Positions 457 through 6,823 of a DNA stretch of 64,000 nucleotides are shown here, one piece after another. The translations under genes were made by a program, and so were the position numbers. The notes under the pieces are model-generated. The model saw only the letters and a program-made list of their open reading frames with translations, had not been told where the DNA came from and made no database searches. The DNA is from Muribaculaceae bacterium (lineage in GTDB: Bacteria > Bacteroidota > Bacteroidia > Bacteroidales > Muribaculaceae). Position 1 is the stretch's first letter. Every line of letters begins with the position of its first letter. Location of the stretch: assembly GCA_029057985.1 (NCBI GenBank), contig JAIDYR010000004.1, forward strand, positions 52,336 to 116,335, given 5' to 3'.

Positions 457-1803
457 CTAATGCAATACTTTACGCACCCTATTGCCTTGCCTGCATATTG
501 TCAGTCCTCGACCGGGAGAGTCCAGACGTACGCCATCAATTGAATAGTATTCAATATTTTCCTCGACAGCTGCATTTTCTATTTTTCTTATGCCTGAAGA
601 AAATCTTTGATAGTCAGAAAATTCTACATCTCCTCGCTTTTTGTATCCCTCTGATTCTTCCCAACTGGTATAAAAAGATACTTCACAAGTCAAAGGATAC
701 CCCTCAATATCATCATAAGCAACTCTGTTTAGACTATCATTCCATATTTCTGCAAATCCCCCGTCTGGATCTGCAATTCCATCAACAACTTCTATATTAA
801 TGCCAAACTTATCTATTAATTTATACCCGCCATATAGGTTTGCATTTACGTAGTTTTGTTTGGAAGTGGTGAAGTAACTTCCTAAATCGTCAAGATATTT
901 AATAGTATATTTTTCACCACTAAGTGTTAATTCCACATTTCTATCATTATAATTCGCAAATGCCCATCTTTCTCCATAATAATCATCCGTCACCTTAAAA
1001 CTCTTCACTCTGTTTCTGCTGTCGGGCTGATAAATGGAGGAACGGATATCACCATAATTGAAATCTATTATCTGGCCGTCTGTCTCATACCATTCGATAT
1101 TATCAAATCTATATCTTAATGATAAGTCTGTTTCCCCATACGACGAAGGAGCATATTCATCAATGGCAATAGCAACCCCATTTTCATATTTGATAATCAG
1201 CTGATAGCACTTTGCGAAAGAACCGTCAAAAGTTGTTTCAAAATGACTATAACTTGTGATATTCCCATCATAATCCCTATCTATTTCTAATTTATCAGTT
1301 ACGTATTCTTCTCCTGTCATCAAATTCTTTACAGAGTTTTTCACTACTAAATCTTTGAGAATATCATCATACTCTTTGAACGAAATTAATCCAGGGATAA
1401 ATTCACCATTCTCACTCAAGATGAATTGATTGGCTTTTTCGACTCTTCCTAATTCATCATATTCATATACTACTTTACTAACAGTCTTACTATACGCTGA
1501 CTCGATAATATATTCTTTTATCCAGCCTTCGGATGTATATTTATAAGTATCGGTTGATTCCAATATTTTCTCACCATTTACTCCGCATCCATAGGTCACG
1601 ACTTTGCCGGGTTGCCACTCACCGTTGAAATACGAATTTCCGTATCCACTCAATGTATTTATTCCGACTCCAACTCTACGCGGGATTGCGGCTTTGATTT
1701 CATGCCCTCCAAGCCTCTTCTCATTAGCATATCCCGATCCCGAAATCAGACTCAGCATCAGAATTCCGATCAGAGCTACGTATTTCATTACTTTTTCCTT
1801 CAT
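457..1803 (-). CDS. Secreted hypothetical protein with YD-like segments and a C-terminal YYSIDGVRL...RQGNRVRKVLH tail
   Basis: 448-aa ORF with N-terminal signal peptide. Confidence 0.75.
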   Translation of the reverse strand: MKEKVMKYVALIGILMLSLISGSGYANEKRLGGHEIKAAIPRRVGVGINTLSGYGNSYFNGEWQPGKVVTYGCGVNGEKILESTDTYKYTSEGWIKEYIIESAYSKTVSKVVYEYDELGRVEKANQFILSENGEFIPGLISFKEYDDILKDLVVKNSVKNLMTGEEYVTDKLEIDRDYDGNITSYSHFETTFDGSFAKCYQLIIKYENGVAIAIDEYAPSSYGETDLSLRYRFDNIEWYETDGQIIDFNYGDIRSSIYQPDSRNRVKSFKVTDDYYGERWAFANYNDRNVELTLSGEKYTIKYLDDLGSYFTTSKQNYVNANLYGGYKLIDKFGINIEVVDGIADPDGGFAEIWNDSLNRVAYDDIEGYPLTCEVSFYTSWEESEGYKKRGDVEFSDYQRFSSGIRKIENAAVEENIEYYSIDGVRLDSPGRGLTICRQGNRVRKVLH

Positions 1804-1807
1804 TTCT

Positions 1808-2686
1808 TTATTTTCTTTTATTTATCTTTTTATACTTATCCTTTTTCATTTTAAGCATCTCACGAGCGATGGACGATTTCAGATGATAGACAGGTTCGCA
1901 TACCATTATTTTAAGTTTCTCATTATTAATATTTTCATCAGAGAAAACGGAAAGAGCTATTGATGCATCACGAAGATTGTAAGCGTTTGCATATAAATGT
2001 CCATCAAAGTAATCACTCTCTATTAAGGCATAACGTTCATCTATGTATTCTTGAGCATTATAGTTATAATACAATTCATCTGTGACATATATTGACGAGC
2101 CATTAAGTCCGCCGTCTTTAAAGGAAAAACCATACCAGGGAAATTGTTCCTCCGGAAGCGTATATAGCAGTTGTTGATTTTCATCTACCATTATATCTAA
2201 ATGTGGAGGCATCTCAGCTTTAATTTGAGATCTTGAGGCACCCCATGTGATGATTGTATCGAAATTTTTATTCTTTGGTGTCACGGTCACCTTGCAGGTT
2301 GCTGTCTTCTCTCCCTTCCTAAGAATGATCGTAGTAACGCCAACATGATTTGCAGTAACTTTACCATTATTATCCACACTTGCCACGAAAGGATTCATGG
2401 ATTCCCATTCGACGTTTTTCTCTTCCGTCTGGAGTTGAAACTCATTCTTATACTTCATGGATAAAGATGTCATATTCAGGGTCAACTGAAAGTTCCCATT
2501 TTCATCTTCCTCATCCGGATCTTCAACCCCTGGTTCCTGACTTCCTGGGTTCTGACCGGTATCTTGGTCATGCCATGGCTTATCCTTATCGGGTTCTGCC
2601 TCTGGTTCGTCTCCACAAGATGTGACCATCATTCCTGCCATAAGAAAGACAGACAGGAGAAGAAATGCTTTAATCATTTCTTTCAT
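1808..2686 (-). CDS. Lipoprotein with Big_2-like (bacterial Ig-like) domain
   Basis: Lipobox MMVTSCGDE; LTLNMTSLSMKYKNEFQLQ...VASVDNNGKVTANHVGVTTIILRKGEKTATCKVTV is Big_2-like. Confidence 0.75.
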   Translation of the reverse strand: MKEMIKAFLLLSVFLMAGMMVTSCGDEPEAEPDKDKPWHDQDTGQNPGSQEPGVEDPDEEDENGNFQLTLNMTSLSMKYKNEFQLQTEEKNVEWESMNPFVASVDNNGKVTANHVGVTTIILRKGEKTATCKVTVTPKNKNFDTIITWGASRSQIKAEMPPHLDIMVDENQQLLYTLPEEQFPWYGFSFKDGGLNGSSIYVTDELYYNYNAQEYIDERYALIESDYFDGHLYANAYNLRDASIALSVFSDENINNEKLKIMVCEPVYHLKSSIAREMLKMKKDKYKKINKRK

Positions 2687-2718
2687 ATTCTAAATTCTTA
2701 TTTTGTTATGTTATTCTA

Positions 2719-3627
2719 TTATTTTACAATAGCTCGCCTGCCCATTCTCTTCCAAGGTTTAAACTTCAATCTAAGTAAATCAGCTGATCCGTCTGCACGC
2801 GTAATCGTTGAATATCCATAGTTAGTGGTCGATCCGTTGAATTTCTCACTCTTTATCGTTCCATTATAATTCAACGTAAAGGAGAAGGGCCTGCTGAACT
2901 CATAGTCATCTTCATCATCTTCATATAAGTTTATGACCATTTCGTCTGGAAGATATACCGGACCATTTCCAAATAGTCCAACTGCAAACAGAACATCACA
3001 GAAATCTTCAAAATTGTATAAGAATCCGAGAGGGAACTGACGAAACCGATTTTCCTCAATTCCATACTCAATCTCTATATCAGAAGAAAAACCATATTCC
3101 TGTCCATCATTAACCTCAACCCCCTTATATGCTATATGTCTTAAATTGCCATTTCTCCATATAAAATTCTGCTCCGTTTTAAGCGATATGGTTTCCACAT
3201 GATCTTTATTATGGTATTGTATTCTGCCTGAAATATCTTCAGTCATCTTGGTCAGACAATTATCCTTATCGTAAGAAAAGGTATATTTCCCGGTATCTCT
3301 CGATTGATATGAATCTGAATCGTCTATGACTGAAAATGACATTTCAGAGATAAGACCTTTTGAGAATTTAAGATTGTATTCGATTCCATCGAAATACATC
3401 TTGTTTTTGTCATAATCTATAGTTACCTCTTCACCCTCATAATCCTTAAATTTATAAGGTCTGCCATTTTCATCGTAACGGATCTTACACTCTCCTACCG
3501 ATGTCACTCTTCGTCCGTCCATGTCGGAGACTCCGACATCGGGCATATCATCTTTACTGCAAGCACTCACTTGAACAAGGACCATGATGCTAAACATCAT
3601 AATCCAAAAAGTTTGGAATCTTTTCAT
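2719..3627 (-). CDS. Hypothetical lipoprotein
   Basis: Lipobox VQVSACSKDD; 302-aa ORF. Confidence 0.7.
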   Translation of the reverse strand: MKRFQTFWIMMFSIMVLVQVSACSKDDMPDVGVSDMDGRRVTSVGECKIRYDENGRPYKFKDYEGEEVTIDYDKNKMYFDGIEYNLKFSKGLISEMSFSVIDDSDSYQSRDTGKYTFSYDKDNCLTKMTEDISGRIQYHNKDHVETISLKTEQNFIWRNGNLRHIAYKGVEVNDGQEYGFSSDIEIEYGIEENRFRQFPLGFLYNFEDFCDVLFAVGLFGNGPVYLPDEMVINLYEDDEDDYEFSRPFSFTLNYNGTIKSEKFNGSTTNYGYSTITRADGSADLLRLKFKPWKRMGRRAIVK

Positions 3628-3634
3628 GATATTA

Positions 3635-5803
3635 TTATTTTACTATTAGTTTTTCAACATTTTCTCCCTGACGGATAATATAGCATCCCGAAGGAAGCGA
3701 TTCTACTGATTCGCGTTCAACGTTTCTACGGATAATCATTCCATCTATATTGAAAATATCCACTAATCCGGCTCCTTCATTAACCAGCGAAATATCAGAG
3801 TTGAGATGCACCTCATATTCAAAAACGAACTTTGCATCGAAATTCTGTCTGCCTGTGAAGCGTCCGGTAACAAGACTCTTATGCATTCCGACCTCCGTCT
3901 CCAATGCAGGAAAATCTATTATTTCAAGTTGATAATCAGGAATGTTACACTCAAAATTTACCTGAGGATAGGTAGTTCCCTCCAAGAAATCCTTATTATC
4001 GGGAATTGCCATAGGCAAAATTTCTCCATATTCTTTATATTCAGCATATTCTTCTACGTCAGGTACATAAAAAGATTCTGAGCCTCTCCAGTAGAATGCC
4101 GATGTCTTTTGAGGAGCCATTAATGGAAGTAGGACTATATCTTTAAGCGTTGGTGAATGAAAACTTCTCCATTCCAAGAGTTTGACATTTTCAGGAATCA
4201 CTATAAATTCCAACGCTGTATTCTCAAAGGCAGCCATCCAAATTGCCGAAAGCGAAGAAGGAAAATAAATCTCCTCTAAAGATGTGCAATCCATAAATGC
4301 ACTTCCTCCTATTTCCTCGATAGCATTACCCAAGGTTACATTTTTCAAAGAACTGTTATTCTTAAATAAATTATCCGGTATCCTTTTTACTTTATTTCCG
4401 AAAATACAATTCTCAATTGCTGACCCTATATCAAAATGTGTGGAAATAAATTTGATATTTGCATTCTCAGCATTCCATCTCAAAATCTTTAGTTTCCTGC
4501 ATAAAGCGAATAACTCCCAACTATATAATTCCTTGAGTCCTTCACCTATGATAAGTTCTTCGAGATTTGGACAGTTATATATAGCGTTGTATCCTATAAT
4601 TTCTACATTATCCGGGATACTTAGAATCTTTATCCCGGATTTTTCAAAAGCACTTTCATTGATCAAGATAAGAGACTCCGGCAAATCTATATTTTTCAGA
4701 TTAGTACAGTCGTACACAAAATAACCCGGCAGCATGGTGACGTTATCGCCGAATGTAATCTTTCTTAGAGCAGATGAAAACATGCTACTCTTATAATTCT
4801 CCGGAATTGTCTCTATCTCCTTTGCATTCCATACTACCTCGTTTAAGGATTGGCAACCGGAGAAAGCACGCATCCCAACATAAAATACTGACTCAGGAAT
4901 CACCACTTTCTCAAGCCTGTTATTACCCTCAAACATATAATCTCTTATTCCCCGTGTCCCGGGCTTAAATTCTATGACAATCTCATCAAAGGAATTATCA
5001 GGAGTATACATATATGCTGCGTTATCAATATAGACCACTTCCCCAACCGGTTGCTCCGCTACCCATGCGGTACCTGCGAAGGCTTTGTTACCAACATATT
5101 CAATGCTTCCTTTTGTGGTTATATTAATTAAAGATGAGACAGACATGAACGTCTCATCGGGCACTATTTTCACCTCCGACCCAAAATTAACAGTCTCTAC
5201 TCCGCTGCCTACAAAGACTCCACGATATTGATTATTAATCCAATGATTATAGGGATTAACTTTGCAATCAACAGCATTCCAATTAAGTGTCTTGATATTG
5301 CGACATGCTCCGAAACTATTGACCTGAATAGACTTCAGATTGCGGGGTAGCGTTATTTCTTCAAGTCCGAAACAAGAATAAAAAACACATCCTAACTCTG
5401 ACCCCCCATTATCCCCAATTCTTTCTAAAGATTCAGGAAAAGTTATATTCTTAATACTTTGACAGTTATAGAAGGCTTTATTTTCTATAGCAATCAGCCC
5501 TTCCGGTAATGAGACTGTTTCTATATTGATATAATCACTAAAGCTATCGCTTCCGACAGTTGTAATTCCTCGTTCGATTACGACATGCTTGATCATATCC
5601 TTCAGATCATACCATCCGGGATAATTACCCACACGATAGTCATAATTAGTCATAGCGCCTTCTCCGGAGATTGTAAGCGTATAGTCGGAGGATGAATAGG
5701 TCCAGTAAGCTTCGGCTCCGCATCCTCCACTGCGGGCGAAAGTCTGAAGACTGGAAAGAAGGAGCATTAGCATTGATAACGCAATCAAAATCCTTAACTT
5801 CAT
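3635..5803 (-). CDS. BspA-type leucine-rich-repeat surface protein
   Basis: Repeated LPEGLIAIENKAFYNCQSIKNITFPESLERIG-type units; signal peptide; C-terminal IFNIDGMIIRRN...CYIIRQGENVEKLIVK. Confidence 0.85.
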   Translation of the reverse strand: MKLRILIALSMLMLLLSSLQTFARSGGCGAEAYWTYSSSDYTLTISGEGAMTNYDYRVGNYPGWYDLKDMIKHVVIERGITTVGSDSFSDYINIETVSLPEGLIAIENKAFYNCQSIKNITFPESLERIGDNGGSELGCVFYSCFGLEEITLPRNLKSIQVNSFGACRNIKTLNWNAVDCKVNPYNHWINNQYRGVFVGSGVETVNFGSEVKIVPDETFMSVSSLINITTKGSIEYVGNKAFAGTAWVAEQPVGEVVYIDNAAYMYTPDNSFDEIVIEFKPGTRGIRDYMFEGNNRLEKVVIPESVFYVGMRAFSGCQSLNEVVWNAKEIETIPENYKSSMFSSALRKITFGDNVTMLPGYFVYDCTNLKNIDLPESLILINESAFEKSGIKILSIPDNVEIIGYNAIYNCPNLEELIIGEGLKELYSWELFALCRKLKILRWNAENANIKFISTHFDIGSAIENCIFGNKVKRIPDNLFKNNSSLKNVTLGNAIEEIGGSAFMDCTSLEEIYFPSSLSAIWMAAFENTALEFIVIPENVKLLEWRSFHSPTLKDIVLLPLMAPQKTSAFYWRGSESFYVPDVEEYAEYKEYGEILPMAIPDNKDFLEGTTYPQVNFECNIPDYQLEIIDFPALETEVGMHKSLVTGRFTGRQNFDAKFVFEYEVHLNSDISLVNEGAGLVDIFNIDGMIIRRNVERESVESLPSGCYIIRQGENVEKLIVK

Positions 5804-5854: not shown

Positions 5855-5954
5855 TAAAAAAAGCGTAGGAATCTGTATCAGTAACCGTCCTACACTCTGA
5901 GGCTTCTCGCATTGCCCTATCTATGTCGGACGGCAACCTGCAGAAGCCCACGCT
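5855..5954 (-). terminator. Terminal stem plus U-tract at the 3' end of the ncRNA candidate
   Basis: AGCGTGGG (5954-5947) pairs with TCCTACGCT, then TTTTTTT (minus strand). Confidence 0.6.
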
Positions 5955-6206
5955 CGTATATGCAATGATCGTATCGACCCAATTCTCTCACGAGAACACC
6001 GGGCCGATAGCGGATATCACATATCCACGGGCATCTACCGTTGCTCAACCCTTGACATAGATATGAAATTTTGCGAGAATTTCAGAGTGCCAAGAATCAG
6101 CGCGGATAAACGCTTTTAATCACAAAAATCAGACAATCATTTGATTGTCAATTTTGCATATCCCACCCCACTTATCCCCTGCAGGGGCTTCTGCGATGAG
6201 ATTTGC
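5855..6206 (-). ncRNA. Candidate structured non-coding RNA, ~350 nt, class unresolved
   Basis: Promoter TTTG-N20-TAACTTTG (minus strand) at 6242-6211; several hairpins; terminal stem AGCGTGGG/TCCTACGCT followed by TTTTTTT; no coding ORF. Confidence 0.6.
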
Positions 6207-6210
6207 ATTG

Positions 6211-6242
6211 CAAAGTTATAAAAATAATTTAATAATCCCAAA
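6211..6242 (-). promoter_or_regulatory. Bacteroidetes primary sigma promoter for the ncRNA candidate
   Basis: TTTG (6242-6239), 20-nt spacer, TAACTTTG (6218-6211) on the minus strand. Confidence 0.7.
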
Positions 6243-6352: not shown

Positions 6353-6823
6353 TTACTCTGCTGTCTTTTCTTCTGCTGCGGGAGCTTCTGCGGCAGGAGC
6401 AGCTGCAGATTTCTTGCGGCTGCGGCGAGTTGCTTTCTTCTTGGGAGCGGCTTCAAGCATTGCTTCGTTGAAGTCTACGAACTCGATCATGCACATTTCT
6501 GCATTGTCACCGAGACGATGACCTGTCTTGAGGATACGAAGGTATCCACCCGGACGCTCCGCAACCTTATCGGCGATAACACCGAAAAGTTCCTTGACAG
6601 CTTCCTTGTTCTGAAGATAGCTGAAGACCAGACGACGATTAGCCATGTCGTCTTTCTTCGAGCGAGTGATGATGGGCTCGGCAAACATGCGCAGAGCTTT
6701 AGCCTTGGCTACAGTCGTGAAGATGCGCTTGTGCATGATCAGCGAGATGGCCATGTTTGACAGAAGCGCTTCGCGATGGCCTTTCTTACGGCTGAGGTGA
6801 TTGAATTTTTTATTATGTCTCAT
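6353..6823 (-). CDS. rplQ: 50S ribosomal protein L17
   Basis: [29 protein letters not shown]. Confidence 0.97.

Follow-up and report, generated by a model that had tools for sequence, protein, structure and literature searches.

The locus examined here raises the question of what a structured, ORF-poor stretch of about 350 nt on the minus strand is doing between a ribosomal operon and a gene for a secreted leucine-rich-repeat protein. It lies in a 64,000-nt stretch of a Muribaculaceae contig (JAIDYR010000004.1), which was analysed as a whole and is referred to as the window. An earlier note, made from the sequence alone, had described it as an orphan structured RNA with its own promoter and terminator, possibly of the 6S or Bacteroidales-1 type. 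We favor another explanation, to which we assign a probability of roughly 60%: that promoter, leader, terminator and gene form a transcription-attenuation switch of a new Bacteroidales family. The reason, as judged from sequence comparison, is that the terminator strands have conserved, mutually exclusive pairings.

What the earlier note had read from the letters is in place. TTTG (6242-6239), N20 and TAACTTTG (6218-6211) occur on the minus strand as described, and the ~350 nt from this promoter to the T7 (5862-5856) are indeed poor in ORFs. All named pairing elements are also present: GACAATCA-AA-TGATTGTC (6149-6132), GGATAT-GTG-ATATCC, GCCGTCC...GGACGGT, the TATCGGCCC...GGGTCGATA hairpin and the terminal stem AGCGTGGG/TCCTACGCT with its T7. 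Of these, the GCCGTCC/GGACGGT and AGCGTGGG/CCTACGCT pairings are conserved, but the GACAATCA and TATCGGCCC hairpins fall in variable parts. Likewise, the proposed 3' end at the T-run does resemble an intrinsic terminator, but the unit continues beyond it through a further hairpin (5846-5822) to an ATG at 5803. The upstream neighbour, a ribosomal operon whose last gene is rplQ (stop near 6353), has a terminator hairpin of its own at 6310-6282, and the RNA is therefore a separate transcription unit. Folded as a single sequence the element reaches -141.9 kcal/mol, compared to -102.8 +/- 5.9 kcal/mol for shuffled sequences (z = -6.7; 0/100 shuffles); the rod obtained as this minimum-energy structure was superseded by the covariation model. 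That the element is more than a chance arrangement follows from the recurrence of its sequence plan, with compensatory changes, in 176 distinct full-length cores. Table 1 gives the coordinates.

Table 1. Parts of the element, its helices and the genes that follow it (window positions).
Feature	Positions	Strand	Evidence or remark
Bacteroidetes-type promoter, TTTG/N20/TAACTTTG	6211..6242	-	TAnnTTTG upstream of core in 156/170 copies vs 5% of control positions
5' domain; CAGAAGCCC (6193-6185) is the 5' strand of long-range helix K with 5949-5941	6160..6210	-	
Variable linker with non-conserved hairpin GACAATCA-AA-TGATTGTC (6149-6132)	6117..6159	-	Relatives without matches over query 53-95
Conserved core, AAAGCGTTTATCC ... 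CCTACGC plus T-run	5856..6116	-	176 distinct full-length relatives
Helix P1, GCGUUUAUC (6113-6105) : GGUAGAUGC (6039-6031)	6031..6113	-	99.6% paired, mostly invariant
Pseudoknot PK, UAUC of P1 alternatively pairing GAUA 5879-5876		-	97.4% paired, 18 both-side-changed cells
Helix P2, GAUUCUUGGC (6098-6089) : GUCAAGGGUU (6056-6047)	6047..6098	-	94.7% paired, 5/11 pairs both-side-changed
Pseudoknot helix P3, ACUCUG (6088-6083) : CAGAGU (5899-5894)	5894..6088	-	97.1% paired, 6/6 pairs both-side-changed
Pseudoknot helix P4, UUCUCGC (6079-6073) : GCGAGAA (5910-5904)	5904..6079	-	98.2% paired, 6/7 pairs both-side-changed
Pseudoknot helix P5, AUCUAU (6062-6057) : AUAGAU (5924-5919)	5919..6062	-	80-82% paired, all pairs both-side-changed
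Variable stem-loop with GGATATGTGATATCC and the GTGA-capped hairpin of the earlier note	5960..6028	-	No sequence conservation in alignments A2, A4
Antiterminator-like helix AT, GUUGCCGUCC (5937-5928) : GGACGGUUAC (5890-5881)	5881..5937	-	92.1% paired, 5/10 both-side-changed
Terminator-like hairpin T, GUAGGA (5893-5888) : UCCUAC (5870-5865)	5865..5893	-	92.8% paired, 4/6 both-side-changed
Long-range terminator stem LT, GCGUGGG (5953-5947) : CCUACGC (5869-5863)	5863..5953	-	97.6% paired, mostly one-sided changes
T-run (T7), directly 3' of the terminator stem	5856..5862	-	Run of 4-9 in 139/176 copies
Post-terminator hairpin GCUCU...AGAGC, purine-rich loop CCGGGGAA	5822..5846	-	Motif over-represented in relatives' spacers
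Putatively regulated gene, secreted BspA-type leucine-rich-repeat protein, 722 aa	3635..5803	-	LRR_5 E = 3e-95
Probable remaining operon, three co-oriented secreted-protein genes (3627-2719, 2686-1808, 1803-457)	457..3627	-	Co-transcription inferred

The element is no orphan, as had been supposed, and is one copy of a multi-copy family. BLASTN with 358 nt found matches in 32/61 related genomes, many of which had more than one; most matches cover query positions 96-358. For genome surveys we used R1, a covariance model built from the element's 3' part; the 3' half of the window copy scores 111.7 bits. R1 matched 132/149 sampled genomes and 28/29 genera of the organism's own (Muribaculaceae-like) family, at 1-16 matches per genome, counts that run slightly high because a few matches merely mirror a true copy on its antisense strand. 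Outside this family, the model matched 20 genomes, which belong to 13 further Bacteroidales families, and none of 299 sampled from elsewhere in the phylum. The organism's own genome holds about 8 sense copies that differ strongly from one another, their scores ranging from 111.7 to 40 bits. Among named genomes, a scan for the signature pattern matched Duncaniella muris, Heminiphilus faecis, Phocaeicola oris and Barnesiella sp. WM24, along with many Muribaculaceae, Prevotella and other MAGs. Three signature copies (L123, L125, L158) lie in contigs labelled as Lachnospiraceae or Pseudoflavonifractor MAGs, which are possibly mis-binned or mislabelled Bacteroidales. By sequence comparison, we assign the element to an order-specific Bacteroidales family of structured RNAs.

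The covariation analysis that the earlier note had called for supports a defined fold. Mutual information over 153 sequences (effective number 138), computed with no structure assumed, picked out a set of helices, and their pairs were counted on an independent 80-sequence alignment. For fold model A (P0, K, P2, P3, P4, P5 and AT) we found that: (i) 90.9% of cells were paired, compared to 80.2% after shuffling; (ii) 36/54 pairs had changed on both sides; (iii) the covariation score was 0.347 versus 0.164, with 0/500 shuffles as high; and (iv) slid versions of the model were only 33-50% paired. The strongest mutual-information signal (z up to 55, up to 6 pair types) comes from P3, where a variable six-base strand always matches a second strand 180-200 nt away. 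Helix K is 84-89% paired with both-side changes in 5/9 pairs, and in most relatives its 5' strand forms the loop of a hairpin, P0 (GACCG/CGGTC), that is poorly formed in the window copy. The fold is a multi-pseudoknot: P2 is crossed by P3, P4 and P5, P0 by K, and P3-P5 by AT. Mutually exclusive alternatives, namely T, LT, PK and helix B, are conserved too; PK covaries and competes with P1. T and AT are mutually exclusive, sharing GGA 5890-5888, and LT excludes both K and T. A GUUGCC:GGGCAAU helix shows mainly one-sided changes, as LT does.

The position of the copies relative to genes indicates how such an RNA would be used. Among 170 distinct copies with sufficient upstream sequence, TAnnTTTG was found 25-170 nt before the core in 156 (92%). 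When ORFs are measured from the first ATG that follows a stop, one of 100 aa or more begins 20-100 nt past the T-run in 102/168 copies (61%) compared to 4.9% of random windows, and the same ORF criterion applied to the divergent side gave 11/158. The starts peak at 40-70 nt past the T-run; the ATG of the window's BspA/LRR_5 gene is at 52 nt. A -7 promoter element was found in 0/144 spacers between T-run and gene, and upstream genes lie on either strand at random (76:65); the downstream gene must therefore be reached by read-through from the leader promoter. An upstream promoter, a constant spacing to a co-oriented gene and a promoterless interval are what characterize a cis-regulatory leader, and we accordingly read the element from its sequence context as a cis-acting 5' leader of about 350 nt, not a stand-alone RNA. 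The exceptions are a few copies that have no T-run or no downstream gene. Inspection by eye, the only search made for one, revealed no short leader peptide.

How the leader may control the gene is suggested by the strand CCUACGC, which precedes the U-run and has two conserved partners, GUAGGA (in T) and GCGUGGG (in LT). Both partners have conserved, overlapping competitors: GGACGGCAAC of AT in the case of GUAGGA, K and helix B in that of GCGUGGG. The sequence thus holds the parts of a transcription attenuator, a terminator-like hairpin with a U-run and a conserved competing antiterminator helix (AT against T, K against LT). In our working model the nascent leader would fold into a compact multi-pseudoknot made of P0, K, P2, P3, P4, P5, AT and either P1 or PK, these helices all being mutually compatible except P1 with PK. 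This state would occupy both partners of CCUACGC, GUAGGA in AT and GCGUGGG in K, leaving CCUACGC free, and RNA polymerase would continue into the gene, which begins about 50 nt further on. Without the pseudoknot, CCUACGC would pair with GUAGGA (T) or GCGUGGG (LT) before the U-run and transcription would stop; some signal would select between the two states. Both the control of termination and its direction are our inference. In the window copy hairpin T has only modest stability (-7.0 kcal/mol), and the minimum-energy structure contains LT together with AT and not K, so that the choice would have to fall to kinetics or a ligand. Which state terminates is uncertain, and the switch may have the opposite polarity.

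There is precedent for this layout. Riboswitch and attenuator leaders in general share with the element a promoter, a conserved pseudoknotted core, conserved exclusive helices, a U-run and a following gene; compared to most of them, however, it is larger and more knotted, its regulon has no common pathway and it has no Rfam match. The c-di-GMP riboswitches resemble it as multi-copy leaders for diverse accessory and surface genes, but no Rfam model matches and the element's architecture is different and far larger. We tentatively entertain, at somewhat less than even odds, that the RNA senses its signal directly, as a riboswitch of a new class or in some other way, in which case it would be an order-specific general sensor, in up to about 16 copies per genome, that licenses accessory surface and conflict genes.

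The genes behind the leaders bear on what might act on it. Of 132 non-redundant downstream proteins, 20 carry LRR_5 and the others vary widely (outer-membrane barrels, C10 proteases, TerB, a protein kinase, AbiGi and others); no common pathway is obvious among the 132, and PADLOC families gave single matches each. Signal peptides are modestly enriched (81/110 leader genes versus 216/400 neighbours, p = 0.0002), an enrichment that was not significant in a smaller matched set. The three further operon genes in the window are mostly secreted-protein-like, with matches to a DUF4595-like domain (below cut-off) and Big_2. In the same genome (G000), several LRR_5/BspA genes lie inside the operon that follows a leader copy on contigs C49, C66, C69 and C91, sometimes with a small gene first. 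By inspection, the genes after other copies in this genome look conflict- or stress-related: L093 (C91) resembles HKD-type helicase-linked proteins, L084/L096 (C91) a metallo-beta-lactamase fold and L090 (C29) TerB. Downstream of copies L002, L012, L138 and L143 a small, precursor-like protein, rich in Cys and Gly and with a twin-arginine-like start, sits beside a radical-SAM-like ORF, perhaps a RiPP locus.

Accessory genes, often for surface proteins in operons and with no common metabolite pathway, are also what one would expect if the leader recruited a protein instead of binding a metabolite. The pseudoknot would then be the binding site for processive antitermination of the EAR/LoaP type, for a NusG paralogue of the UpxY type or for another RNA-binding protein, and the operon would be read through many terminators. 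UpxY-type antiterminators have been discussed for Bacteroides capsule operons (e.g. PMC7315117, PMC7819879), and the epsC/EAR RNA (RF01735), known from Bacillales (PMC2864571, Table 1), and other processive-antitermination RNAs are likewise leaders upstream of surface-product operons. However, the element has no sequence or structure match to EAR, nor does any other Rfam family match, and the exclusive terminator and antiterminator strands within it better fit a self-contained attenuator. We regard protein recruitment as possible though doubtful.

The spacer between T-run and start codon offers another potential output. In most relatives it contains a purine-loop hairpin (GCCAACGAGRGGANGACCGNGGC, with variants such as stem-GTGAGTC-stem); a GRGGR/AGGGR loop motif is present in 107/144 spacers, compared to 27.5 expected, with stems that vary strongly around a conserved loop. 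Protein or ribosome binding by this hairpin is possible. Pairing of its loop with the P4 strand UCUCGC was considered and has no supporting covariation. In L006, L105 and L153 a strong inverted repeat (GAACTGAATACCATTC...GAATGGTATTCAG) takes the place of the usual hairpin, and these copies have no standard T-run. If the T-run were no terminator in the cell, the hairpin with its GRGGA loop could be the real output, acting on translation; the excess of the motif and its closeness to the start codon (about 40 nt or less) would fit. Against this, spacers fold no better overall than shuffled ones (-8.0 versus -7.9), the motif lies well away from where a Shine-Dalgarno sequence would normally be found, and hairpin T, which has a U-run behind it, shows covariation. 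We consider this reading unlikely and retain attenuation of transcription as the better one.

More improbable still is a stand-alone RNA that stops at the T-run and has the gene as a chance neighbour, whether as an sRNA acting in trans or in a housekeeping role (6S-like or other). The element's own promoter, terminator-like end and stable fold would suit such an RNA, but the constant, co-oriented, promoterless spacing to the downstream gene, about 50 nt, argues against it, as do the copy number of 1-16 per genome and the conserved hairpin past the T-run. RNAs of the 6S type form a long, double-stranded rod whose central bubble resembles an open promoter, and are encoded by free-standing genes; the element, by contrast, is by covariation a multi-pseudoknot and is placed before genes. 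The suspected likeness of GCGAGAAGCCT to 6S dissolves in the same way, GCGAGAA being the 3' strand of covarying helix P4. Neither RF00013 nor RF01693 matches the element, and RF00013 finds nothing in the genome. Bacteroidales-1 (RF01693) is, like the element, a structured RNA of Bacteroidales (PMC2864571, Table 1), but it has an ordinary copy elsewhere in this genome (G000:C110:11320-11510, L217; 102.3 bits, cut-off 60). The reported absence of tmRNA, RNase P and SRP hallmarks is borne out, Rfam 15 giving no covariance-model match at gathering score in the window; at six diverse loci holding copies the only such matches were two nearby tRNAs. A permissive search of the window stretch (E up to 10) returned nothing relevant, its RsaE and BSnc120 matches being terminator look-alikes far below cut-off. 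We found no paper containing the conserved sequence strings. PMC2864571 lists two motifs of possible relevance that have no Rfam number, Bacteroides-2 and GUCCY-hairpin; outside a comparison with these two, the family is, judging by Rfam 15, previously unlisted.

A dispersed mobile or recombination element acting as DNA (MITE-like or a gene-cassette site) would account for short, multi-copy units with similar ends (AAAGCGT...ACGCTTT) beside variable accessory genes, but is highly improbable given compensatory base changes, which indicate selection on RNA structure, the fixed orientation and spacing to the gene and the strong divergence of copies within one genome; at the sensitivity used, phage and plasmid records gave no matches, and viral contigs none for an exact 26-base motif.

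The family marks a sizeable gap in the map of bacterial RNA regulation: a large, knotted and probably regulatory RNA, near-universal in the sampled genomes of a dominant gut family and there in up to 16 copies, is absent from Rfam. Its putative regulon can be named for testing, and comprises BspA-type surface proteins, proteases and conflict-type genes. The covariation-supported helices make both the structure and the signal addressable in the cultivable Duncaniella muris, Heminiphilus faecis and Phocaeicola oris.
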